This document shows, in pieces, positions 3 to 24,578 of a DNA stretch of 64,000 nucleotides (position 1 is its first letter; every line of letters starts with the position of its first letter). The translations under genes and the position numbers were made by a program. The notes beneath the pieces are model-generated. The model had not been told where the DNA came from. It saw only the letters and a list, made by a program, of their open reading frames with translations, and searched no databases. Source of the stretch: Pseudomonas sp. MAG733B. Lineage in GTDB: Bacteria > Pseudomonadota > Gammaproteobacteria > Pseudomonadales > Pseudomonadaceae. The DNA lies in assembly GCF_036884845.1 (NCBI RefSeq), contig NZ_CP145732.1, forward strand, positions 806,001 through 870,000. The letters run 5' to 3'.

Positions 3-1115
3 GCACGTATCCAAAATGAGCGCGCTGTCGAGTCTGCTCGTCTGAAGGCGGAGGAGGAAGCTCGAGAGCGCCATCACCTAGCCGAAGTCGAAGCGTCACG
101 CGGCACCTTCGGAGAGCTATTCCTCGACTACATCGAATCGCGCAGGGAGAAGGCCACTGCCGGCGTCGTAAAGGAACTGGAGCGGTTGTATCAGACCAAT
201 ATGCTGGCCCCTCACGCCAGCATCATGGCAATGAAGGCGCGAGACATTCGCCCCGACCACATTCTCGCAATACTTAATCCGATCTGGGATCGCGGTGCGA
301 AAGTACAGGCCGACCGGATGCGTTCGTTCTTGGCTGCGGCATTCAATCATGGTCTGCGGGCCGAGAACGCGGTCGGCAGGTCGAGCTCCAAGAGCTACAA
401 CCTAGTGAACAATCCGGCCATGTTGGTAGCAGTCGAGAAGGTATCGGCCCCCGCAACCCGTGCGCTTTCTGATGCGGAGTTGAGAAAGTTCTGGGGAACA
501 GTCGAAACCACCGAAGGCGTCGGGCCGGTCATGGCGCTGTTGTTCAAGTTCGTCATTGCCACAGGCGGCCAGCGCATCTTCAACGTCTGCCAAACCACTT
601 GGGATGACTACGATCTGGAAGCCGGCACCGTGCGCCTGATACACCGTAAGGGGAGGGGAGGCCAAGCGATGAGCAGACCGCACCTAGTTCCATTGACTGA
701 GCGGGCTGTCGCCATTCTGAGGTGTGTCAAGGAGATCAACGGCTGTCATTCCTGGCCGTGGACCACCACCGGAAAGCAGCACATCGTCGTCAGCAGCCCA
801 CGCCATGCCATTGCTGACTGGCTGAAGTCAGAGCACGCAATTATAGATGGGAAGCAGACCCCCAGCTTCTCTCCGCGCGACTTGCGCCGCACCTGCGCCC
901 AACTGATGCAGAGACACGGAATCAGCGATCAACTGTCCGACCTGCTTCAAGCGCATGGTCAGACTGGCGTAGCGAATATTCACTACCGAAATAGCCCCGA
1001 GGCGGCATTACCGGAAAAACGGCGTGCCATCGAGCTGTTCGAGCGTGCGCTTAGGAAGGTATTGAGGGAGCAGCAGACCGCTAAAGTGGTGCCGCTGTCG
1101 AAAAAAAGGAAATAA
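3..1115 (+). CDS. Tyrosine recombinase (phage/island integrase), 5' end outside window
   Basis: Site-specific tyrosine recombinase that would integrate and excise the mobile element. The reading frame is open from the first bases, so the N-terminus lies left of the window; 370 residues are visible. Catalytic-domain landmarks are the first Arg in GGQR (codon at 573), the box PRDLRRT (codons 873-890; the usual HxxR His is replaced by Arg, as in many Pseudomonas island integrases), the His of QAHGQTG, and the Tyr nucleophile in IHYRN (codon at 984). The stop is followed by an A/T-rich stretch and two 13-bp direct repeats. The next genes (AlpA-like, CHC2-like, RepA-like) fit a satellite or integrative element. 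The family call is secure; the insertion target cannot be read here. Confidence 0.93.
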   Translation, partial: ARIQNERAVESARLKAEEEARERHHLAEVEASRGTFGELFLDYIESRREKATAGVVKELERLYQTNMLAPHASIMAMKARDIRPDHILAILNPIWDRGAKVQADRMRSFLAAAFNHGLRAENAVGRSSSKSYNLVNNPAMLVAVEKVSAPATRALSDAELRKFWGTVETTEGVGPVMALLFKFVIATGGQRIFNVCQTTWDDYDLEAGTVRLIHRKGRGGQAMSRPHLVPLTERAVAILRCVKEINGCHSWPWTTTGKQHIVVSSPRHAIADWLKSEHAIIDGKQTPSFSPRDLRRTCAQLMQRHGISDQLSDLLQAHGQTGVANIHYRNSPEAALPEKRRAIELFERALRKVLREQQTAKVVPLSKKRK

Positions 1116-5584: not shown

Positions 5585-5822
5585 TGAGATCCGAAAATGC
5601 TCGACCAGAAGCGAATACTCACTCGCGGTGTCCCTTAGAAGTCCGCCCATCGTTTGTGCGACGGCCCGGCAAGGCTGTTCAACGACTCGTAACTGGAGGT
5701 AATGTCGATGTTCATGGCCTACGCGCCCACTCGTCACCATCTCTTTCAAATAACGGGTGTTCATCGACTGAATCGTCGAGTTGATGACAGAGGGGGCATC
5801 GACGATGCCCCCCCGATCCGCG

Positions 5823-8800
5823 CTACGCTTTCGGCTGGCAGATGTAGTTGCCGCTTCGCAGGAAGGTTTCATGCTTGTTCGGCGAGTAGACGCTCAAGGT
5901 GCCCTGCTCGTTGGCCGCGAAGTGCTTCCAATTGCCTTCTTCCAGTACCAGTTCCGCAAAGTTTTCTCCTGTCTGGCTCACGTAGAGCGCCTCTCGCCCC
6001 CAGCGTGTCGTAAACAGACTGACATCTCGCAGATGGGCGCTGGCATTGATGCGAATGTCTTTGGATTGAAGCTTCCACTCATAGCCTTTGTCGGACGTCA
6101 TTACACGATCCGAGTAGAAACACATCACAGTCTGTCCCATACGCGTGATGAGCGGTGCATCGTAGCTGTCGTCTTCGCTCGCCCAGGTGCAGGTTCGCCA
6201 GCCTTTACCGGCAACGTAATAGCTGACGAACGAGGCCGCGTTGTTCTTCTTCTTCAGTGACTTAAATACCCAGTTGTACTTGCAGAATGCGAGTAAGCTG
6301 CTTCCATCGGGCAGCGGCTGGATGCTTTCTACTTCGATTCCCTCCGAGAAGTTCGGTGCGTCTTCCCAGCGCAGCCATGGGCCGTCGAGGTCGGCGGTGC
6401 AGAAGATGGCGACCTCGTCGTAGCTGCCGGTCTTTGTAGAGTCGAAAATCAGCCCTTTTTCGACGTAGGAGTACTCCTTGCGCTCCTTGAATCTCCATAG
6501 CCACAGGCCGTTGAACCGGATGACCTCTTCAGTTCGGGTGAACTCCCAGCCCTGCGCATCCGGGAAACGGGTCTGTTTCCAGTTCTGCGCATCGCGGGAG
6601 TAATAGAACCCGTCGTTGTAACCCGCTATGGCAATCCATATTCCACCCACGAAATACAGCTGGGAGATGGCGGGTGCGTTTTCGGTGGCACTGAGACGCA
6701 CGTTCTGCCAGTGCTCTCGATCCAGGCTGCGATACACCCGGTTGTCGTGGTCGACGATCAACCACGTGATGCCATCGGTCTTGATGTACTGGATTTTCTC
6801 GGGGTCGCAGGGAGGGTGCTGTACCTGACCCCACTCGATGCTGAACAAATGATCCCGGTCATCTTTTTCGATGACGACCGACTGTTTGGCCAGCTTTTCC
6901 TGCTGTTCCTGATGAAGTCGCTCGGCACGCTGCTTTGCTTTGCGCTCAACCACGGACTCGTCGAATCGACCTTCCATGAATTGCGCGAGCTGTTCGGCCA
7001 CGTCCGCACAGGCATTTGAAAAGGCACTGAGTGTGTCGTCGAGCTGGCGTTCGAAGTGATTGAACTGGTCGTACCAATCTCCGTTAGCTGCGGAGTTGTC
7101 CAGCTCGAAATCGGCATAGCCGGATTCGTCCTTGAAGGAGATCGTGGGCAGGCCCCAGCGCGCCAGCATGCTATTACCTTGGTTCAGCGTGCTGGAATGT
7201 CCGGAGATGAACTCGCTGATTTTTTTGCGCATCTCGTTCAGCGAGGACAGGCAGGAACCACGGCCAAGAGTGTAAGCCGTTCCCTCCACTTTGCTGCTGA
7301 CCTTGCTCAGGAACGAGTCGTCCCATGCTTCCATGAAGAACGAATAATCAGAGGCTTTCAGGGTCGCTTTCGTCAGATCGAACGAAAGACTGCTGGCCTC
7401 ATGACCGACCGTGCGCAGTCTGGCGCGAGCCTCGGTGAAGGTCTGCTCAAAACGCAGCTCGCGGTAGCGAACGATGTTTTTCCAGCCGTTGGTCTGCTGC
7501 TGCAACTTCTCGGCAGCCGCAAGCACTTGCTCTTCATCCTGTTCGGTACTGATCACCAGCCCACGGGCGAAGTTTTCCTTGAACTGTGCGGGCTTGAGCG
7601 CGTTCAGGATACGCAGCACATGAGGACCTTCGATCTGTTTCTGGCACAGCGTCAGCAGGTAGAACGCATCGAGCAGCCAGGTGTAGGTCTTGTCGTCGCC
7701 TTTGAGCAGATCCTGCAGGATCGGCAAGTAGTCCTGAACCTTGCGGGGGTTGTCCGCCAGTACTGCGATTTCAATTGGCGCCTGCGGGCACCCGGCCTTG
7801 TGCGCCAGCAACTCGAGAAACTCCCGGCCCTGTCTGTTCAATGACGCCGAGTTCTCGATGCACAGAGCGAACAGCAACAGGTAGTTGTGTCGGGCGTCAA
7901 GATCGTCAGTGGTGTCGAAGAAGGTGTGGGAGTGGATGTCCGGCAACGACGACACCAGTGCAACCGGCTCGGCTTGGGCATCTTCGGCGGGTTCGTCGGG
8001 CAAGGCGTTAAGACCGTGCTGATCCTTGTAAATCTCCAGAGTCAGCAGGCTGCCGCCGATGATTTCCTCTATCAGGTCGCGCATCCGGTACTGGGTATAA
8101 AGGCCGGAAAACGCCTTGCCAAAGAATCTGGAAATGATTCGCTCGCGCTTCTCGTCGCTGTCACAGACCTCGCCGTCCGAGATCATGTCGATGATGCGGT
8201 CGTACTCGTCGGAGAGGTAATACAGCGAGTTGAACGCCAAACCCGAGATGTTTTTCTGGACGAAGTACGAATCGGCGACGTGCTCTTCGAACGATAGCTC
8301 GATGACCGAGCGGTAGCGTTCGATGCTGGTGGTTTCGATCTGATCGATCAGGTCGATGATGAAACTCAACAGTTGGACTTCTTCGTCACAGTCCACGTCC
8401 AGCTTTTCCAGCGTGACGATCAGGTGGTTGATGTCTTGCGTGGTCAGCATGACGCCGGGGTGGCTGCGCATGAAGTCATACGCCAGGTTGAGCACCAGCA
8501 GCCCCTTGGGCATCGATTTGTAGCGACGTTTGTTCGCTTCGATGTTCAGCGACCATTGGTGAAAATTGGTGTTGTTCTCAACCCGGATCAGGCGGCGATT
8601 GATCTTGTCGACCGCTACCAAGACGAAATTACGGGTTTCGATGATGTATTCGTTCATCGTGCCCAGGTTGTTGCGGATCACCGCAATACTCTGGGCGTTG
8701 ATCAGGTTCTGCTGCTGCAGTTGCTTGAGGTAGTGCCATGCGAATTTCTGCATGTGCAGCGCGTCAACCTGGTTCTGCAACTGGTTCTGGCGATTCTTGC

Positions 8801-9023
8801 CGCTGAATGCACCGGCAAACCGCTTGAAGAATCCGCTCTCGGCTTGTTGTTTCAGGCGTTCCTCGCTGCACGTGACCAGCCGTGAAGCATCCACTGCCAG
8901 TTGCTGGGTCAGCGCTGCGTTGTTCTGGTGCTGGGCAACGAGTGCCTCAACCGCTTCCTGCTCCGAGGCGTTCAGCGGTTGATTGAAGATTTCCTGGGGT
9001 GCTGCTTCGACCGTTTCGCTCAT
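5823..9023 (-). CDS. Large unknown protein with BNR-like C-terminal region
   Basis: A 1066-residue protein I do not recognise as a named family. The N-terminal half is helical and highly charged, with a FFKRFAGAFSGKNR stretch near residue 65. From about residue 740 to the end the character changes to Trp/Tyr/Gly-rich beta repeats with sialidase BNR/Asp-box-like motifs: YRSLDREHW (near 761), YYSRDAQNW (near 808) and MTSDKGYEW (near 976). That suggests a beta-propeller for protein or ligand binding. No P-loop, signal peptide or membrane segment is seen. It starts 12 bases after the upstream gene and is the last gene of the WYL-regulator block. A sensor or scaffold role in a conflict system is inference from context. 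Confidence 0.8.
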   Translation of the reverse strand: MSETVEAAPQEIFNQPLNASEQEAVEALVAQHQNNAALTQQLAVDASRLVTCSEERLKQQAESGFFKRFAGAFSGKNRQNQLQNQVDALHMQKFAWHYLKQLQQQNLINAQSIAVIRNNLGTMNEYIIETRNFVLVAVDKINRRLIRVENNTNFHQWSLNIEANKRRYKSMPKGLLVLNLAYDFMRSHPGVMLTTQDINHLIVTLEKLDVDCDEEVQLLSFIIDLIDQIETTSIERYRSVIELSFEEHVADSYFVQKNISGLAFNSLYYLSDEYDRIIDMISDGEVCDSDEKRERIISRFFGKAFSGLYTQYRMRDLIEEIIGGSLLTLEIYKDQHGLNALPDEPAEDAQAEPVALVSSLPDIHSHTFFDTTDDLDARHNYLLLFALCIENSASLNRQGREFLELLAHKAGCPQAPIEIAVLADNPRKVQDYLPILQDLLKGDDKTYTWLLDAFYLLTLCQKQIEGPHVLRILNALKPAQFKENFARGLVISTEQDEEQVLAAAEKLQQQTNGWKNIVRYRELRFEQTFTEARARLRTVGHEASSLSFDLTKATLKASDYSFFMEAWDDSFLSKVSSKVEGTAYTLGRGSCLSSLNEMRKKISEFISGHSSTLNQGNSMLARWGLPTISFKDESGYADFELDNSAANGDWYDQFNHFERQLDDTLSAFSNACADVAEQLAQFMEGRFDESVVERKAKQRAERLHQEQQEKLAKQSVVIEKDDRDHLFSIEWGQVQHPPCDPEKIQYIKTDGITWLIVDHDNRVYRSLDREHWQNVRLSATENAPAISQLYFVGGIWIAIAGYNDGFYYSRDAQNWKQTRFPDAQGWEFTRTEEVIRFNGLWLWRFKERKEYSYVEKGLIFDSTKTGSYDEVAIFCTADLDGPWLRWEDAPNFSEGIEVESIQPLPDGSSLLAFCKYNWVFKSLKKKNNAASFVSYYVAGKGWRTCTWASEDDSYDAPLITRMGQTVMCFYSDRVMTSDKGYEWKLQSKDIRINASAHLRDVSLFTTRWGREALYVSQTGENFAELVLEEGNWKHFAANEQGTLSVYSPNKHETFLRSGNYICQPKA

Positions 9024-9035
9024 TGAAAATATGCC

Positions 9036-10451
9036 TTAAAGATTATCGATCAGGTTCTTCAACTGTGTGCTTTGGGCTGCCATGGTCTTGACCTGGCCAG
9101 CAAAGTGGCGCTCGGACAAGTACAGGCCCTTGTTAAATTCGGCATAGAACGACTGCGACATCTGCAGGTATTCCAGCGAGTCATGCATGATCATTGCGTT
9201 ACCCACCACGTGTTCGGTGGCGGTCAGCGTCAACCGGAAACTTTTCTCGATGTGGTTGTCGATAGCGATGCTCATGGCCATCGTGGTGATCAGGCCGCCG
9301 ATAATGCCGCCCACCAGCGCACCGATCGGTCCACCGAGAGCGCCCACTGCAGCGCCCACCGAGCTGCCGACGACAGCTGCACCAGTCTGCAGTAAATTGT
9401 GGCCCGTTCGGGTTTCCAACTCTTCGCTTGTGATCTTGCCCGCGGCAAACAGCACCACGTTCTGCACCACATCCACGGCACATACCGCAGCAGCAGCTAC
9501 ACCATTGTTGGCGAAGGTGCGCTTGAACGCCGAGCCCGCGAACAGGGCAGGCAAGTTGCGTGCTGTGATGCTGACCGTCGCAGTCGCGATGCCTGCCTTC
9601 AGCGCGCTGTCACCGGCGGCGATTGCGGTGTTTTGGAGAATCTGGAAAGTCGCTTGCTCCACCGTGATTTCGCCGTCGCGGACTTGTTTGATTGACTGGA
9701 AAGTATTGATACTGCCCGCGATCACCGTAGTGATGACAGCTGCCGAACCTGCCGCGTGAAGGCTTTGTTGAACGGTGGCCTTGTTCAGGTAACCGTTTTG
9801 CATCTTTTCATGCAATTGCTTGCCTGCCTCGGTGCCGCTGCCCAGATGCTCGGCGTCCCGTTTGCCCAGAGGCGTTGACTGAACGCCCTCGACATCGAGG
9901 TTGCCCGTCGTCTTCTCGCGAACCTTTTCGGCGGCATTGGCCACTTCCGGCCGCGTTTGCTGGTTTCTCCGCATGTCTCGTTTGGCCGCTTCCTTGATCT
10001 GTTCGATCTGATCTGCAGGCCCGATGAATGCATCACTGTCCTGATACTGATGAATGCCGTCTTTGGTGGATCTGAATGCCTTCTGCGTGGCATCGCCATT
10101 CTTGAAATATTTCAATTGCGCTCCGAGCAGTTGCTCGTCGCCCTTCATGACCACGATATCGTGGGTGGTGTGATTCTTCGCTAACGGGGTGTTGGTGAAG
10201 TTGTCAGTGAAGGCGCGGACTTCCTTGTCCTTGAGGATCGCGTCCAGGTTGAATGATTCGGCGTGCCATGTCTCTGCGGCGAACCCACCTTTGATCGCGC
10301 TGTTTTGCGCGGTTCCGGCAATCTTGTCGATGATGGCGTTCGCGTGATTGATTTCGCCCAGCATGTGGCCAATCTTTTCCGACGCCTGGGTGGGCCAGAT
10401 CGGGCAGAGGCTGACTGAGCTGTTCAATGCCTTTTTAGTTTGGTTGTCCAT
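9036..10451 (-). CDS. Glycine-zipper membrane protein with possible nuclease-like N-terminus
   Basis: A 471-residue protein. Residues 55-120 (GGFAAETWHAESFN, then THDIVVMKGDE and GAQLKYFKNG) carry E60, D98 and Q112-x-K114 in the order and spacing of PD-(D/E)xK nucleases of the Mrr type, which often use QxK; this is a fold guess only. Residues about 150-220 are charged and helical. Residues about 300-400 are hydrophobic and glycine-rich (GAAVGALGGPIGALVGGIIG near 366-385), a glycine zipper likely to insert in or remodel membranes. The middle gene of the block, 55 bases after the WYL regulator and 12 before the large gene. It might be the effector; function unproven. Confidence 0.78.
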   Translation of the reverse strand: MDNQTKKALNSSVSLCPIWPTQASEKIGHMLGEINHANAIIDKIAGTAQNSAIKGGFAAETWHAESFNLDAILKDKEVRAFTDNFTNTPLAKNHTTHDIVVMKGDEQLLGAQLKYFKNGDATQKAFRSTKDGIHQYQDSDAFIGPADQIEQIKEAAKRDMRRNQQTRPEVANAAEKVREKTTGNLDVEGVQSTPLGKRDAEHLGSGTEAGKQLHEKMQNGYLNKATVQQSLHAAGSAAVITTVIAGSINTFQSIKQVRDGEITVEQATFQILQNTAIAAGDSALKAGIATATVSITARNLPALFAGSAFKRTFANNGVAAAAVCAVDVVQNVVLFAAGKITSEELETRTGHNLLQTGAAVVGSSVGAAVGALGGPIGALVGGIIGGLITTMAMSIAIDNHIEKSFRLTLTATEHVVGNAMIMHDSLEYLQMSQSFYAEFNKGLYLSERHFAGQVKTMAAQSTQLKNLIDNL

Positions 10452-10506
10452 GGAGCTTCCTTGGCATCATCTATATACAGAGGGTTGATCGGCGCGCTGT
10501 CGGGCA

Positions 10507-11532
10507 TCAGGTGCTTGTTGAGACGGCGTCGCAATAGAGGGTTCGCAAGTTGTTCAGCTTCTGGCTGATCTCATCGACCCAGACCTGTGGCGCATGGACC
10601 CGAATGTTGTCGTTGAGCCCAAAAATCCACCAAAGCGTGTCCCGGTCTAGCGACACTTGAGCGTGCAAGCGTTTCCAGCTGTGGTCAGGGAGGTCGCTGA
10701 GGCTCTGCACGCTGCTCAGCGGTGTCTCACTGAGCAGGGCGGCGATCTGCGGGTGAACGTCGGCGACCAGTTCGACCTGCGCATCGGCTTGTCGATGGTT
10801 GAAAATCCCTGTGTCGATGTAGTCGTCGACGTCGAACGTGGCGTGCAACTCCGCCACTTCATCCAGGACCCTGACCTCGCGAATGCGATGCAGGGCGAAC
10901 TGGCGAAGATCGTCGTAGCCATCAACCGATGCCACCAAGTAGCTGATGGCGTGTCGGGACACCAGTCCGGCGGGGTGCAGACGGAACTGCTTGAGTTCGC
11001 TTTTGCTGCGGCTCTGATACGTCACTTCCAGTTTCCGGCGCTCCAGCAAGCCGGTTGAAACCTCACTCCAGACCTGGGGTGCAATGCTGGCAGGAAGCAA
11101 GGTTTTGCCGTTGGGAACCGTTCGGACCCGCTTTGCCCAATCCGCCAGGCCGTTGTTACCCAGATCGCCCAGAAAGTTTCGGGCGCGCCTGAATTGGGGG
11201 CCGAGTTGGTCCAGCACCGCTTGCGGGAGCAGGGTGGTCAGATGTCGTTCGGAGAGGTAGAGCGCCAGCGCTGTCGGGGTGTCCATGTCTTCCAGTTTCA
11301 GCGGCGCGTCGCGAGTGAAACTCCAGCGAAAGGGAGTTTCACTGTCGTTGCACTGCAGCGAGAAGGGAATGGACAACCGGCTCAGATCGCGCTGAACGGA
11401 GCGCAGCGTTACGGAAAAACCCTTGTCCCGGAGCTTTTCCAGCAGTGTCGATGTAGCAATGCGCTGCGGCTCCGTGGGTATCAGACGCAGCAATGCGAAC
11501 AGCCGCAGCAGCGTATCCTTCGCTTGAGACAT
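10507..11532 (-). CDS. WYL-domain transcriptional regulator
   Basis: 341 residues. An N-terminal winged HTH (residues about 25-55, TSTLLEKLRDKGFSVTLRS then VQRDLSRL) is followed by a WYL domain (about 165-240; HAISYLVASVDGYDDL and RQFALHRIREVRV) and a WYL C-terminal extension. WYL regulators (CapW, BrxR and relatives) commonly repress phage-defence operons and are thought to respond to nucleic-acid or nucleotide ligands. It is the first gene of a three-gene minus-strand run with gaps of 55 and 12 bases, and its promoter region contains two perfect palindromes, so it probably controls its own operon. Confidence 0.88.
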   Translation of the reverse strand: MSQAKDTLLRLFALLRLIPTEPQRIATSTLLEKLRDKGFSVTLRSVQRDLSRLSIPFSLQCNDSETPFRWSFTRDAPLKLEDMDTPTALALYLSERHLTTLLPQAVLDQLGPQFRRARNFLGDLGNNGLADWAKRVRTVPNGKTLLPASIAPQVWSEVSTGLLERRKLEVTYQSRSKSELKQFRLHPAGLVSRHAISYLVASVDGYDDLRQFALHRIREVRVLDEVAELHATFDVDDYIDTGIFNHRQADAQVELVADVHPQIAALLSETPLSSVQSLSDLPDHSWKRLHAQVSLDRDTLWWIFGLNDNIRVHAPQVWVDEISQKLNNLRTLYCDAVSTST

Positions 11533-11585
11533 GGCAACTACCTTGTAAGCCTATTCAATGGATGGTCGCCATTTTGGCGCCAACT

Positions 11586-11624
11586 TAGCATCGATGCTAC
11601 GAGATCGGATGGCTTAGTGCCATC
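11586..11624 (-). promoter_or_regulatory. Two palindromes upstream of the WYL regulator
   Basis: TAGCATCGATGCTA (11586-11599) is a perfect 14-bp palindrome, and GATGGC-TTAGT-GCCATC (11608-11624) a perfect 6+6 inverted repeat. Both lie 55-92 bases before the WYL gene start in a 145-bp intergenic region, a typical operator position for autoregulation. Confidence 0.5.
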
Positions 11625-11677
11625 TTTCTGTATTCCATAAAACTAAAGTCTAGACATGTGCAATTGTCTGCGCCTGC

Positions 11678-11794
11678 TCAACCGGGGGCACGCCGGCTCT
11701 GGGCATCGCGTTTGAGATCGCTGTATTCGCGATAGAACGCGTAGCCTTTCTGCAGAACGACAAATAATCCGATCACTGCAAGCAGGTTTTTCAT
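11678..11794 (-). CDS. Small membrane protein, 38 residues
   Basis: Begins MKNLLAVIGLFVVLQKGYAF, a single hydrophobic N-terminal helix, then a charged tail (YREYSDLKRDAQSRRAPG). Its ATG overlaps the TGA of the zinc-ribbon gene by four bases (ATGA at 11791-11794), so it is probably translated by coupling. Likely a one-pass inner-membrane peptide with its basic tail in the cytoplasm. Function unknown. Confidence 0.6.
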   Translation of the reverse strand: MKNLLAVIGLFVVLQKGYAFYREYSDLKRDAQSRRAPG

Positions 11795-12054
11795 AAGTGG
11801 TTCCTTGATTTGCAGTCATTGTCTTCAGTGGGGCGACAAGGTATGTCGCGCTCTATCTTGTTCAGGATCAGAAATTCTTCCAGACGCGCCTTGAGCACCT
11901 CTTTGTGGGTCGCCTCCCGGTATCCGAGTGGCAAGTCATGGCAAGCCGGGCAGCTTGTGGGAGGCGGTAAAACGCTCGGTCTTGAATCACAACAAGGCAA
12001 GACGGTCGTTTTCCAGAAGCATTCGGGACAGACAAAGGTGAGAGGGAGTGACAT
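11791..12054 (-). CDS. Small zinc-ribbon-like protein
   Basis: About 87 residues beginning MSLPLTFVCPECFWKTTV. It contains CPEC, CC and CPAC clusters within the first 50 residues, suggesting a zinc ribbon, then a charged helical stretch (REATHKEVLKARLEEF). ATG at 12054 is chosen because the Cys-rich fold starts right after it; an upstream ATG at 12060 is possible and no clear ribosome binding site decides. Overlaps the following small membrane gene by four bases. Function unknown. Confidence 0.5.
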   Translation of the reverse strand: MSLPLTFVCPECFWKTTVLPCCDSRPSVLPPPTSCPACHDLPLGYREATHKEVLKARLEEFLILNKIERDIPCRPTEDNDCKSRNHL

Positions 12055-12200
12055 GAGCATGGCGACCACGTGCAATCTTCGGTGCTGCAAGATTGCTTTG
12101 CGGGAGCGACAGCACATGTCGCTCATCTGCAGGCGCTGAGTAGGAAAGGAAAGGAACGGAACGGACTATCTATATTGGGTCGACTTCTGCCTTTCCCATC

Positions 12201-16810: not shown

Positions 16811-16925
16811 GTATGCCTTAGCTGATACGGGCATATTCAAATTTATTTGCCCTTTCCGCTTGATAAGTGACACCCATAGTGCAACAGTATTAGTAGAACA
16901 CCCTAACTGATACGTGAGGCACATC

Positions 16926-17543
16926 ATGTTCATCCGCGCATATCTCCGAGCATCAACCGAAGAGCAAGACGCCAGCCGCGCCCAGGCCTCGCTTGAACAG
17001 TTCGCCAGCGACCATAACAAGGACATTGCGAGCGTGTATCTTGAGAATGCCAGTGGCGCCTCCGCCGACCGGCCCGAGTTGCTGCGTCTGCTTAAAGATG
17101 CGCGCAAGGGTGACGTGCTGCTGGTGGAGTCAATAGACCGGCTTTCCCGCTTGCCGGTGGAGGATTGGCAGAAGCTCAAGGCCACGATTGATTCCAAGGG
17201 ACTGCGCATCGTCGCGCTCGATCTCCCGACCAGTCACCAGGGAATGCAGGACACGAAGGGCGACGAGTTCACCGGGCGGATGCTTGGCGCTATCAACTCG
17301 ATGCTGGTGGAAATGATGGCAGCCATTGCCCGCAAGGATTACGAGCAACGCCGTGAGCGCCAGGCCCAGGGTATCGAGAAGGCCAAAGCTGCCGGTAAGT
17401 ATCAAGGCCGGCCGATCGATGAAGGTTTGCACAAGCGCGTTACGGAACTGCTCGGTGCCGGCCTTGGCATCCGAGCAACGGCCAGGCACGCCAACTGCTC
17501 AACCACCACGGTACTCAGGATCAGGGACTTGGCCAGTGCCTGA
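16926..17543 (+). CDS. Serine resolvase/invertase-type recombinase
   Basis: About 205 residues. The N-terminal catalytic domain has YLRASTEEQ (Arg8, Ser10 nucleophile) and LLVESIDRLSRL; the E-helix leads to a C-terminal HTH (GRPIDEGLHKRVTELL, then GLGIRATARHANCSTTTVLR). The length and layout match Tn3 resolvases and DNA invertases. ATG at 16926 follows GTGAGG with seven bases; a GTG at 16914 is less likely. It ends about 550 bases before the AAA/protease pair. No Tn3-type transposase is near, so it may serve dimer resolution or be a leftover. Confidence 0.9.
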   Translation: MFIRAYLRASTEEQDASRAQASLEQFASDHNKDIASVYLENASGASADRPELLRLLKDARKGDVLLVESIDRLSRLPVEDWQKLKATIDSKGLRIVALDLPTSHQGMQDTKGDEFTGRMLGAINSMLVEMMAAIARKDYEQRRERQAQGIEKAKAAGKYQGRPIDEGLHKRVTELLGAGLGIRATARHANCSTTTVLRIRDLASA

Positions 17544-18090: not shown

Positions 18091-19077
18091 ATGGCAAATG
18101 GTAAAATTCTTCGGCAGCTGTTCAGAGCAGGCACTGCGGGCGATGCGAATGCATTTCGCCTCGCGTCAAAAGCCGTTATTGAAGAAGAGCGGCAAAAGCA
18201 GCACCATCTGCTAGCGAATGATTTGGAACAGATTCTGTACGGCGGTGAATCGAACTTACGGGCATCGGGGAGCACGCAACGTGCCCATTATGATGTCCCT
18301 GTCGATAAAGAACGCGGTCTACCGCTGCTGGATATCCGATCGCCCAAGCGCTCACTCGACGAAGTGATTCTTCCTCCGAGCAGCTCTGCGGCTTTGGAGG
18401 AAATTCTTGAGGAAAACAGACGGGCTGATGTTCTACGCAGTTATGGAATGCAGCCTGCTGGCAAGGTCATCTTCTTCGGTCCCCCTGGATGCGGGAAGAC
18501 CTTGGCTGCTGAGGTCGTGGCCTTTGAGCTCGACCGACCACTTGCCATCGTCCGCTTAGATGCGCTGGTCTCCTCCTTCCTGGGCGAGACTGCCGCAAAC
18601 CTTCGAAAGGTCTTCGATTTTATTGCCCAGCATCCGTTTGTGGTCCTGTTCGATGAATTCGATGCTATCGGCAAAGAACGGGACAACGGCAGTGACCATG
18701 GCGAGCTGCGCCGAGTAGTCAACGCTGTGCTTCAGATGATGGACTCATACGAAGGTAGCAGTTTGATTATCGCCGCTACGAACCATGAGAAAATCCTCGA
18801 CTCGGCTATCTGGCGGCGATTTGATGAGTCCATCGAATTTCCCCTTCCAGATGAGAAACAGCTGAAAGAAATTTTGCATCTGAAGCTGCGGGGAATCCGT
18901 CGTCAATTTGAGATTGACGACAAAGAAGTATTGAAGGAGTTTAAGGGTAAGAGTGGTGCGGACGTCGAGCGCGTAATACGCCGTGCAGCGAAACGGATGA
19001 TCTTGCGGGAGCAAGAATTTCTGACTATCAAGGAGCTGAAGAGCGCCCTTGCTAGGGAAGACCTCAGGAAGTCCTAA
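18091..19077 (+). CDS. ietA: AAA ATPase, IetA-like
   Basis: A 328-residue AAA+ ATPase: Walker A FFGPPGCGKTLAAE (near residue 128), Walker B VVLFDEFDAIGKE (near 188), sensor-1 IIAATNH, Arg finger IWRRFDESIEF, then the small helical lid. The N-terminal 100 residues are family-specific. The next gene is a subtilisin-like protease; this ATPase plus S8 protease pair matches IetAS, described first as a plasmid-stability pair and later reported as anti-phage. In that model the ATPase holds or directs the protease. Start ATG follows AAGGTGGTG. Confidence 0.83.
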   Translation: MANGKILRQLFRAGTAGDANAFRLASKAVIEEERQKQHHLLANDLEQILYGGESNLRASGSTQRAHYDVPVDKERGLPLLDIRSPKRSLDEVILPPSSSAALEEILEENRRADVLRSYGMQPAGKVIFFGPPGCGKTLAAEVVAFELDRPLAIVRLDALVSSFLGETAANLRKVFDFIAQHPFVVLFDEFDAIGKERDNGSDHGELRRVVNAVLQMMDSYEGSSLIIAATNHEKILDSAIWRRFDESIEFPLPDEKQLKEILHLKLRGIRRQFEIDDKEVLKEFKGKSGADVERVIRRAAKRMILREQEFLTIKELKSALAREDLRKS

Positions 19078-19101
19078 ACATCAGCCCTCAGGGAAGAAAC
19101 T

Positions 19102-21528
19102 GTGGCTACCTACAAGCACCTGAACATTGCGCGCGAGGTACTGGATAACCAGCGCCGGACGAAAAACCCTCCCCATTTCGTGACCCGCGGGGATCTTCGC
19201 GGGCATGGCCAAAAACTGAATGGCTACTTCGCAACAGCTGAAGGCCTAGCCAGAAAGCAAATCGGCTCCTCTGCCGGCTCCCCCTTCGTCCTCAAACTGA
19301 AATACGAGGGCGCACTTACGTTCGCCAACTTGTCACACCACGGGTTGGAATTCATCAGCCAAGAAGACAAACAGCTGTGCGTTGTGTTTGCGACGGAGGC
19401 TGGCTTGTCCATGTTCGCCGACCACCTGAAAAAGTTGGGTGTCTTGGGTACCAGCTTGACCTACCGCCAGATCTTGGAAGCGATCGAAGGGATCGAGGCG
19501 TGGTCCGCAGAGGATCGCAAGAGCTGGGCGCTCAAGAATATCGGCCTTCCAAGCACTCCTAGCTTTAAGCTTGACGTCGAACTTTGGCCTGTTGACGTGG
19601 CGAACCACCCCAACCGCATCCGGCTCACAACTGCTTTCGAGGGCTGGCTAGAGAGCCAGAAAATCCGAAAGCTCGACAAGATCAATCTGGACAGTCTGCT
19701 GTTGTACCGAGTTGAGGTCACCACAGACCAGGCACAATTGCTGCTAGATCATCGTGATGTGCGACTTGTAGATCTCCTTCCTGCAACTGGGATCAGCATT
19801 CGCCAGCTAAATCGCGACATCAACGAGCTCCCTCGAAACATTCCTTCCCCCGCTGCTGATGCAGCTAGGGTCTGCATTTTGGATAGCGGTATCAATGGGA
19901 GTCACCCGCTATTGAGGTCGGCAATGGCTGAGAGCGCCTCTTTTATCGATGGCGAAGGAGATGACGATGAGGTAGGCCACGGCACGGCGGTGGCCGGTGT
20001 GGCTCTATATGGCGACGTGGAGGCTTGTGACAAGTCGAATTACTGGAGGCCAGAGTTCTGGATCTACAACGGGAAGGTGATGAAGAAGTGCCCGCATACC
20101 GGAAATGCGGTCTATGACGAGCACTCGCTTGAGGCGTCCCTGACCAAGGCTGTCGAGTATTTCGTTGATCTTGGTTGCAGGATCTTCAATCTCTCGCTGG
20201 GTAACAGCCATGCACCGTATGATGGTACCCATGTCCGCGGTCTCGCCTACATCCTGGATGTTCTCTCCAGGCACCACAACGTCTTATTTGTGGTTTCGAC
20301 GGGTAACTATTGTGGGTCGGATAACCCGCCAACGCCCATCAACAGCTGGCGAGACGAATACCCCGAGTATCTGGTAGCAGAACAGAGCGCTATCATTGAT
20401 CCTGCACCCGCTATGACGGTATTGACAGTGGGGAGTATCTCCCGGCACAACGCCACTTACGACGCTCAGCGGTTTCCTGAAATCCAGCAACTCTCACCAG
20501 CTTCAGAAAATCAGCCTTCACCCTTCACCCGACATGGCCCCTCAGTAAAAGGCGCCTTCAAGCCGGAGCTCATCGCCGCGGGCGGTAATCTCGCAAGCCC
20601 AATGAGGCGGGCAAACGAGCAGTGGCGCCCTGATATGCATGGGCTAGGCGTCCTCACCCTCAATCACCAGGTGATAGGCAATACGCTGTTCAAAGAAGTG
20701 AGTGGTACTAGCTTCGCGGCACCATACATCACTCACTTGGCTGGACGTTTACTGAACGAGTATCCAGCCGCATCTGCCAACCTGCTTCGTGCCATGTTGG
20801 TCAATCAGGCGTATTTGCCAGATCAAGTTATCTCCACTTTCTCCGATGAGTTCAAGAAGGCCTATAAGGAGGATAAGAACACCTACAACCGCGAGGTCGC
20901 GCGAGATGTGGCGGGCTATGGCTCTGTGAGCGAAAGCGATCTCTTCAGGTCCTCCGATAACGTCGTAGTGCTGATGTCGGAAGAGAGCATTGAAAACGAT
21001 TCATGTCAGTTCTACGAGCTTCCGCTTCCGTCCGATTACCTGCGCTCTGCCCGCGCGACACGGGAACTCTCCGTGACACTTGCCTATTCACCAGCGGTAC
21101 GTACCACTAGGATCGATTATCTAGCTACTCAGATCAGCTATCGCTTGGTTAAGGGCACTTCGCTGGATGACGTTCAGAAGCACTTCAACCAGTTGAAGAA
21201 AGCCGAAACCGAGACGCGAAACGACGACGCGACCACCAATCGTGACATCTCTGCTCAAGCACGCAGCCGCGGTACCGTTCAGTCCTCGCGCTGGACCTTT
21301 AAGCAGCGCAAGCCAAATGAAAAATGGTATGTAGTAGTGATCCGTCAGGATCGCGAGTGGAGCCATCCTGATGTGCTGGACAAAGAGCCTTACGCGTTGG
21401 TGGTTACCGTAGCGGATCGGGAAAACGAGAGCGCAAAGCTCTACACTCAGATCCATGCTCTGATTCAGCAGCAGGTCGAAGCTAGAGAGCGACTGAGGGC
21501 TGCTACACGTTTGCAAAACAGAGGTTAA
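19102..21528 (+). CDS. ietS: Subtilisin-like serine protease, IetS-like
   Basis: 808 residues with an S8 peptidase domain. The catalytic triad is visible: Asp261 in ILDSGINGSHPL, His293 in GHGTAVAGVAL and Ser537 in SGTSFAAPYITHLAGR; the oxyanion Asn lies in VVSTGNYCG. About 240 N-terminal residues and about 230 C-terminal residues lack a recognisable domain. There is no signal peptide, so it acts in the cytoplasm, unlike secreted subtilases. The GTG start lies 24 bases after the ATPase stop with an AGGGAAGAA site upstream. As the probable effector it would cleave host or phage proteins when released by the partner ATPase (inference from the family). Confidence 0.85.
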   Translation: MATYKHLNIAREVLDNQRRTKNPPHFVTRGDLRGHGQKLNGYFATAEGLARKQIGSSAGSPFVLKLKYEGALTFANLSHHGLEFISQEDKQLCVVFATEAGLSMFADHLKKLGVLGTSLTYRQILEAIEGIEAWSAEDRKSWALKNIGLPSTPSFKLDVELWPVDVANHPNRIRLTTAFEGWLESQKIRKLDKINLDSLLLYRVEVTTDQAQLLLDHRDVRLVDLLPATGISIRQLNRDINELPRNIPSPAADAARVCILDSGINGSHPLLRSAMAESASFIDGEGDDDEVGHGTAVAGVALYGDVEACDKSNYWRPEFWIYNGKVMKKCPHTGNAVYDEHSLEASLTKAVEYFVDLGCRIFNLSLGNSHAPYDGTHVRGLAYILDVLSRHHNVLFVVSTGNYCGSDNPPTPINSWRDEYPEYLVAEQSAIIDPAPAMTVLTVGSISRHNATYDAQRFPEIQQLSPASENQPSPFTRHGPSVKGAFKPELIAAGGNLASPMRRANEQWRPDMHGLGVLTLNHQVIGNTLFKEVSGTSFAAPYITHLAGRLLNEYPAASANLLRAMLVNQAYLPDQVISTFSDEFKKAYKEDKNTYNREVARDVAGYGSVSESDLFRSSDNVVVLMSEESIENDSCQFYELPLPSDYLRSARATRELSVTLAYSPAVRTTRIDYLATQISYRLVKGTSLDDVQKHFNQLKKAETETRNDDATTNRDISAQARSRGTVQSSRWTFKQRKPNEKWYVVVIRQDREWSHPDVLDKEPYALVVTVADRENESAKLYTQIHALIQQQVEARERLRAATRLQNRG

Positions 21529-24486: not shown

Positions 24487-24502
24487 AAGTTGTTGATCTA
24501 TA

Positions 24503-24578
<76 letters not shown>

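Follow-up and report, generated by a model that had tools for sequence, protein, structure and literature searches.

What do three closely spaced genes in a mobile part of a Pseudomonas genome do together, when one encodes a WYL-domain regulator, the next a glycine-rich protein with several hydrophobic stretches and the last a protein of 1066 residues ending in a beta-propeller? They lie in a 64,000-nucleotide stretch of Pseudomonas sp. MAG733B (NCBI RefSeq assembly GCF_036884845.1, contig NZ_CP145732.1, positions 806,001 to 870,000 of the forward strand), part of a 6.65-Mb genome in one contig; the whole stretch is called the window here, and its positions are counted from its first letter. 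An earlier note had offered the three genes as a candidate conflict system in which the large protein senses, the membrane protein acts and the WYL protein represses. That model is supported in part, by the gene module, a motif and membrane-like stretches in the middle protein (MID), the propeller of the large protein (BIG) and the mobile island around them, but its unit is a pair rather than a trio. On balance, MID-BIG is best explained as an undescribed immune, or conflict, module carried as island cargo, with BIG sensing and MID acting at the membrane, and it is predicted to be probably an immune system against phages or plasmids. The gene block comprises these features, in which ORF stands for open reading frame:

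10507 to 11532, minus strand: WYL-domain regulator, 341 aa (PF13280 at 6.2e-15; the A7 alignment profile reaches WYL and PafBC chains in the PDB)
9036 to 10451, minus strand: MID, 471 aa, with an E60-D98-Q112xK114 head and a predicted glycine-zipper membrane domain (invariant columns, hydropathy)
5823 to 9023, minus strand: BIG, 1066 aa (AlphaFold2 model, Foldseek, VIA-align, hhalign)
11678 to 11794, minus strand: accessory 38-residue membrane peptide (begins within the last bases of the zinc-ribbon ORF; also read in L009, L010 and L035)
11791 to 12126, minus strand: accessory zinc-ribbon ORF, 111 aa, with a shorter start at 12054 possible (ORF call; tblastn in L009, L010 and L035)
5673 to 12149, no strand: cassette block common to another Pseudomonas genome (L035) at 96.3% identity (blastn)

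It is clear that MID and BIG form a real two-gene module. The ORF coordinates confirm three minus-strand genes, with gaps of 55 nt between WYL and MID and 12 nt between MID and BIG. The comparison covered 20 loci (the window, 14 named genome contigs, two Cronobacter plasmids and three further Pseudomonas genomes), close kin included, as with L012 and L033, whose WYL genes are 99% identical. The three further genomes are what remained of seven retrieved stretches once four that duplicated the named contigs had been set aside. BIG lies downstream of MID on the same strand, 7-12 nt away, in every one of them, and the separate occurrence of homologues that the earlier note had named as the contrary outcome did not appear for this pair. 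Some copies are damaged: L016 is cut by a contig end, L020 is frameshifted and the reading frame of L035 changes near residue 22 of BIG. That the block is more than chance is confirmed by homologue numbers and by mostly synonymous codon changes. At E <= 1e-3 there are at least 238 homologues of MID and at least 216 of BIG (about 8000 candidates scored per protein, the best 120 listed), and between the window and P. citronellolis (L009) the codon differences are 166 synonymous and 34 replacement in MID, 266 and 167 in BIG, and 133 and 54 in the WYL gene.

Within a genus sample of 398 Pseudomonas genomes, full-length MID was present in eight, the window's own included, and a full-score BIG N-terminus in the same eight (in G777 from residue 20); the remaining rows were two short glycine-zipper matches for MID and three distant RdcB-like proteins for the BIG N-terminus. 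A phylum sample of 398 genomes yielded full-length MID in the window's own genome only, with one other short match, and searching 95 relatives with the MID protein alone produced three matches, of which only that of the own genome was full length. E. coli genomes had no DNA-level match to the 3901 bases of MID-BIG. A phage origin of the module was rejected, since no MID relative was found in 50,697 phage records and none of 11 pattern matches in viral contigs was a relative.

The regulator scores 55.4 bits for its WYL domain against a curated cut-off of 21.8, with a WCX match slightly below cut-off and a weak Cas3c match in PADLOC that is confined to the WYL region. At E <= 0.01 its A7 profile matched nine PDB entries, PafBC and other WYL chains, some of which we take to be DriD; a search of the PDB with the single sequence at 0.001 gave no match. 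According to the available portion of PMC12340889, DriD binds single-stranded DNA. A WYL gene adjoins the module in 17 of the 20 loci, on the same strand in 14 and divergently in three (L014, L015, L021), and none is adjacent in L008, L016 and L018. Among the 14, that of L020 is a fragment as judged by eye and that of L037 is interrupted by an insert of roughly 1.2 kb (10289-11501), which leaves MID and BIG open. The 15 aligned WYL proteins fall into three groups, with 15-21% identity between groups: those of Pseudomonas; those of L005, L006, L017 and L019; and those of L014, L015 and L021. Because three such divergent groups flank the same pair, the alignment suggests repeated recruitment of WYL genes to the module. 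Of the trio described in the earlier note, the MID-BIG part is conserved and the WYL gene is exchangeable.

MID had been described as a membrane-active-looking protein with a possible nuclease-like head. An alignment of 13 sequences (A5), including relatives of the head from Polaromonas, Acinetobacter soli and Deinococcus that are the most distant at 27-29% identity, leaves E60, N68, D98, Q112, K114, D147 and Q148 invariant; the A. soli gene spans two reading frames, and its pieces were aligned separately. Conserved acidic residues and a (D/E/Q)xK element, as in the PD-(D/E)xK superfamily, are present in MID as E60, D98, Q112 and K114. If the order E-D-QxK is the motif of that superfamily, as we take it to be, these residues may be read as a PD-(D/E)xK-type nuclease active site. 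Hydropathy marks four candidate membrane stretches (residues 230-251, 318-336, 353-371 and 379-401), and sub-threshold matches of the glycine-zipper type include PdsO at 6.2e-7 over residues 321-392. Relatives of the head occur in other settings as well. On a Polaromonas plasmid (L040, 8836-14158) a 650-aa protein with a MID-type head and a membrane-like part is followed by a 408-aa coiled-coil-like protein and an AAA protein, the A. soli locus (L007) has a similar gene set, and the Deinococcus relative lies near genes annotated drmD and MmeI.

BIG reads as an RdcB-like region (about residues 24-231), a helical region (about 375-510), long coiled-coil-like helices (526-712) and a C-terminal beta-propeller (717-1064). 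Its AlphaFold2 model (A2) has a mean predicted local distance difference test score (pLDDT) of 74.3, mostly 80-95 from residue 360 on and low in the N-terminal third. The propeller falls in the confident part of the model and draws Foldseek and VIA-align matches to propellers, so that the propeller-like end suspected earlier is predicted with confidence; outside 717-1064 the fold search gave nothing informative, because the propeller fills the match list. Residues 24-231 align with an RdcB-like set at an hhalign probability of 95.2 (E 2.5e-8), against 1.3 for the best of 30 shuffles and 0.1 for the reversed sequence, and the value falls to 78.4 when only two stand-alone proteins are used. By this profile comparison BIG carries an RdcB-like domain, yet it is not classed as RdcB itself. 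No GTPase model of the kind expected for a dynamin-like partner matched MID, BIG or the WYL protein in the Pfam, PADLOC and NCBIfam scans, and a class-level search of 369 genomes for the RdcB-like domain returned the window and one weak match. BIG diverges faster than MID: across the samples aligned, identity to the window is 48-84% for BIG and 64-85% for MID.

Other proteins related to BIG come in several arrangements. P0224 is a 1487-aa BIG homologue fused to a TPM domain (PF04536). On a Vibrio cyclitrophicus plasmid (L039, 6211-8525) a DUF726 protein adjoins a 454-aa relative of the BIG N-terminus, beside parA/parB. In L082 (2961-8533) a dynamin-like GTPase, an RdcB-like protein and a patatin share one operon, with a divergent WYL regulator of the BrxR family (7t8k, E 3e-61); this operon adjoins ORFs resembling type I restriction-modification subunits and is a second candidate system, and its RdcB-like protein had no relative in phage records. 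Single proteins that read patatin, RdcB-like domain and dynamin GTPase occur in L080 (7178-10894, 1238 aa) and L081 (7077-10787, 1236 aa); they have a glycine-rich C-terminus and are followed by further large genes.

Upstream of the trio, the earlier note had seen the zinc-ribbon and membrane-peptide ORFs as a coupled pair that may share its transcript. They overlap by four bases, lie inside the 96.3% block and are both readable in L035, L009 and L010, but tblastn finds the zinc-ribbon ORF in only these three of the 19 other loci. The wider setting is an island with the following features:

186 to 1115, plus strand: tyrosine-recombinase-like integrase of the island (weak match to XerD 1a0p, E 9.8e-4)
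18097 to 19104: IetA (positions converted from genome coordinates)
19105 to 21507: IetS (positions converted likewise)
24501 to 24547, no strand: direct repeat at the 3' end of tRNA-Thr (47 bp, 97.9%)
24503 to 24578: tRNA-Thr

The second copy of the repeat, 97.9% identical to the first, lies about 500 bases before the start of the window (L047), and the two tRNA-Thr-end repeats bound about 25 kb with the integrase-like gene, the trio, IetA and IetS. The mobile region with IetAS recognized in the earlier note is a tRNA-Thr island of about 25 kb, and the trio is its cargo. IetAS is related to plasmid competition. The block in L035 lies beside the same tRNA-Thr. A resolvase-like gene of the island (16914-17543) has, as judged by eye, a near copy elsewhere in the same genome (L056, 922-1539).

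Named or predicted defence genes were traced within about 10 kb of six of the 20 loci, the window included, the loci having been scanned unequally. Upstream of MID in Vibrio sp. (L008) are the end of a IIG-type methylase gene, a DruE/YprA-type helicase and a UvrD helicase whose gene ends 157 nt before MID. In Giesbergeria (L018/L042) the upstream genes are a DrmD/BrxH-type helicase, a IIG-type methylase and (by eye) a transposase, then ZorA2, ZorB2, ZorE2, DruE-type and UvrD helicases, one DUF2442 gene and MID, such that Zorya type II genes stand between ARMADA-like methylase and helicase genes (L042 15085-18563, L018 49-8575). The adjacency of MID-BIG to ARMADA-like genes is suggestive only. 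Ralstonia (L021) has Wadjet JetC and JetD, with matches to the JetA and JetB models also among the neighbour proteins, Massilia (L017) has PDC-M01A near MID-BIG, and a five-genome search traced a type IV mREase match two genes downstream of BIG in G572 (L037). DruA, DruB, DruC and DruE of P. citronellolis (L009) are 16-28 kb from the module. HEC-06 and Orf5 are among the models listed for the neighbours, their loci not traced.

No named system matched the trio, as the earlier note had held: PADLOC-DB 2.0.0 (2023) has no family at E <= 1 for MID or BIG, systems described after 2023 lying beyond that release, and Pfam and NCBIfam have no curated match for either, the WYL gene alone reaching curated level in Pfam. 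Two labels carried by some MID and BIG homologues, PF26373 and PF25852, did not come up when five of these homologues were scanned against Pfam. Among the openly licensed PMC papers listed by the literature searches, none names MID-BIG or the trio, and the available portions of PMC11090510, PMC9122601 and PMC12629846 do not describe the pair; the predictions of DefensePredictor (PMC13092281) possibly include these proteins. Models of MID and BIG could be added to defence-finding tools at once.

The mechanism with the best support is that BIG would serve as a cytosolic sensor and scaffold, its propeller recognizing an invader-linked molecule and its RdcB-like N-terminus coupling to a membrane-bound output protein. 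MID would be that output, a glycine-zipper membrane protein by which a nuclease head of the PD-(D/E)xK type is kept at the inner membrane. Engaged by BIG, it would cut DNA there, either that of an incoming phage or plasmid or, if unleashed, the cell's own; we slightly favour incoming DNA, as the tether would place the head at its point of entry. The WYL protein would keep expression low until a nucleic-acid or damage signal released it. By analogy, the RdcA/RdcB precedent shows that a soluble complex can switch on a membrane protein by direct contact (PMC6510439, portion available).

Several results weigh against an immune role. The structure prediction for MID is poor (pLDDT 35.1) and gives no fold support for a nuclease, and the MID profile drew no nuclease from the PDB, its few weak matches all lying in the C-terminal glycine-rich half. 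Because of these two outcomes, the nuclease reading draws on the motif ascribed to the superfamily: the hydrophobic stretches and the invariant residues stand, but the fold is unsupported. RdcB, the closest relative of the BIG N-terminus with a studied function, has its role in the control of cyclic di-GMP (c-di-GMP), not in defence. The module is rare, and several loci lie among ordinary genes, as on the Cronobacter plasmids and where Pel and type VI secretion system (T6SS) genes are neighbours. A scan of 126 neighbour proteins from 14 of the 20 loci, their genes called heuristically with a 150-aa minimum, matched 47 PADLOC models at E <= 1e-25, against 57 for 125 control proteins from 12 of 15 random regions of the same genus (four chromosome-sized contigs and one long contig); one protein can match several models, and 25 models were listed from each scan. 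At least part of the control matches come, by eye, from one island-like region among the 12 (L059). Defence enrichment near MID-BIG is therefore not shown and is set aside as unsupported, and since random regions also yield defence matches, neighbourhood alone proves nothing. Defence genes lie near the six loci named above, and homologues do not all stand in defence islands.

The E. coli precedent also invites a signalling cassette without immunity, in which BIG is an RdcB-like regulator of a membrane output concerned with surface, biofilm or stress and MID a degenerate nuclease retained as a membrane receptor. RdcB there joins the GTPase RdcA in acting on DgcE, a membrane protein (PMC6510439, portion available), and the loci among Pel, T6SS and metabolic genes would fit. 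This is nevertheless unlikely: the module is rare and mobile rather than core, the catalytic-type residues of MID are invariant across deep divergence, and one RdcB-like relative shares its operon with patatin and dynamin genes next to a regulator of the BrxR family.

The hydrophobic glycine-rich stretches of MID, the island and plasmid locations and the presence of Wadjet, an anti-plasmid system, and of IetAS as neighbours are also what would be expected if MID were a membrane toxin restrained by BIG or by WYL repression, in an operon that stabilizes the island or excludes plasmids, not phages. Such addiction or competition between elements is improbable, given that no small gene resembling an antitoxin separates or flanks MID and BIG in the compared loci, and that BIG is large, bears a propeller and diverges faster than MID. 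It is very unlikely that MID-BIG belongs as an accessory to a named neighbour, ARMADA or a YprA-helicase system related to it, and has drifted elsewhere. It follows DruE/YprA-type and UvrD helicases in two of the 20 loci (directly in L008, after one small gene in L018), but there is no DruE-type model among the 25 listed of the 47 models matched by the 126 neighbours of 14 other loci (L020 not in that scan), no DruE-type gene in the annotations around two Cronobacter copies, a DruE only at the distance given above in L009, and no such accessory named in the available portion of PMC12458937.

Should the preferred reading of MID-BIG as an immune module be true, an unnamed two-gene module in Pseudomonas, Vibrio, Cronobacter and Burkholderiales has been overlooked by the defence models searched, and a membrane-anchored nuclease effector would be one idea that it contributes. 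Among known systems, Mrr-type PD-(D/E)xK nucleases are like MID in its invariant order E-D-QxK and unlike it in that the Pfam scan and PDB profile search linked the head to no family model or structure. Mrr is a PD-(D/E)xK nuclease with Q in its motif. Zorya and Kiwa are membrane-linked anti-phage systems, and MID-BIG would share with them the idea of acting on DNA at the inner membrane, although the PADLOC scan linked the trio to no model of either system. As with CapW and BrxR, the WYL gene heads the module or is divergent from it, and a BrxR-family gene stands at the dynamin-RdcB-patatin relative; the WYL domain of the earlier note is secure, but the nine PDB entries matched by the profile include none of five BrxR/CapW-type chains. 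CapW represses CBASS (PMC9122588, portion available).

ARMADA type II, as set out in the available portion of PMC12458937, resembles the surroundings of the module, with equivalents of ArmB, ArmC and ArmD upstream of MID-BIG in Vibrio sp. and of ArmA to ArmD in Giesbergeria, an equation of our own made through the PADLOC models DrmD/BrxH, IIG methylase, DruE and UvrD that leaves the RelE-like part of ArmD aside. L008 showed no ArmA, its contig stopping at that point. The Giesbergeria loci differ in their additional Zorya and DUF2442 genes, and MID-BIG itself has no helicase or methyltransferase and is mostly found without ARMADA.

A further comparison is with RdcA/RdcB (YjdA/YjcZ) of E. coli, which, in the portion available of PMC6510439, activate the membrane protein DgcE by direct contact, RdcA being the contacting partner and RdcB itself making no contact with DgcE in a two-hybrid test. 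The likeness lies in the alignment of BIG with RdcB-like proteins over about residues 24-231 and in the action of a soluble partner on an output protein in the membrane. The differences are that MID-BIG has no dynamin GTPase, that BIG adds helical, coiled-coil and propeller parts, that the output would be MID here and is a diguanylate cyclase in E. coli, and that the GTPase, not RdcB, touches DgcE (PMC6510439). A broader proposal, tentative and rather doubtful, is that bacterial immunity makes general use of RdcB-like domains for coupling. They would link different sensors to interchangeable outputs that act at membranes (patatin phospholipase, dynamin, DUF726 hydrolase, membrane-held nuclease), and the E. 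coli control of DgcE by RdcA/RdcB would be a domesticated form of this arrangement. On that view, a signal read by the propeller would prompt MID-BIG, as a surveillance system, to cut DNA at the inner membrane, and a common RdcB-like coupling domain would tie immune operons to the c-di-GMP control of E. coli.

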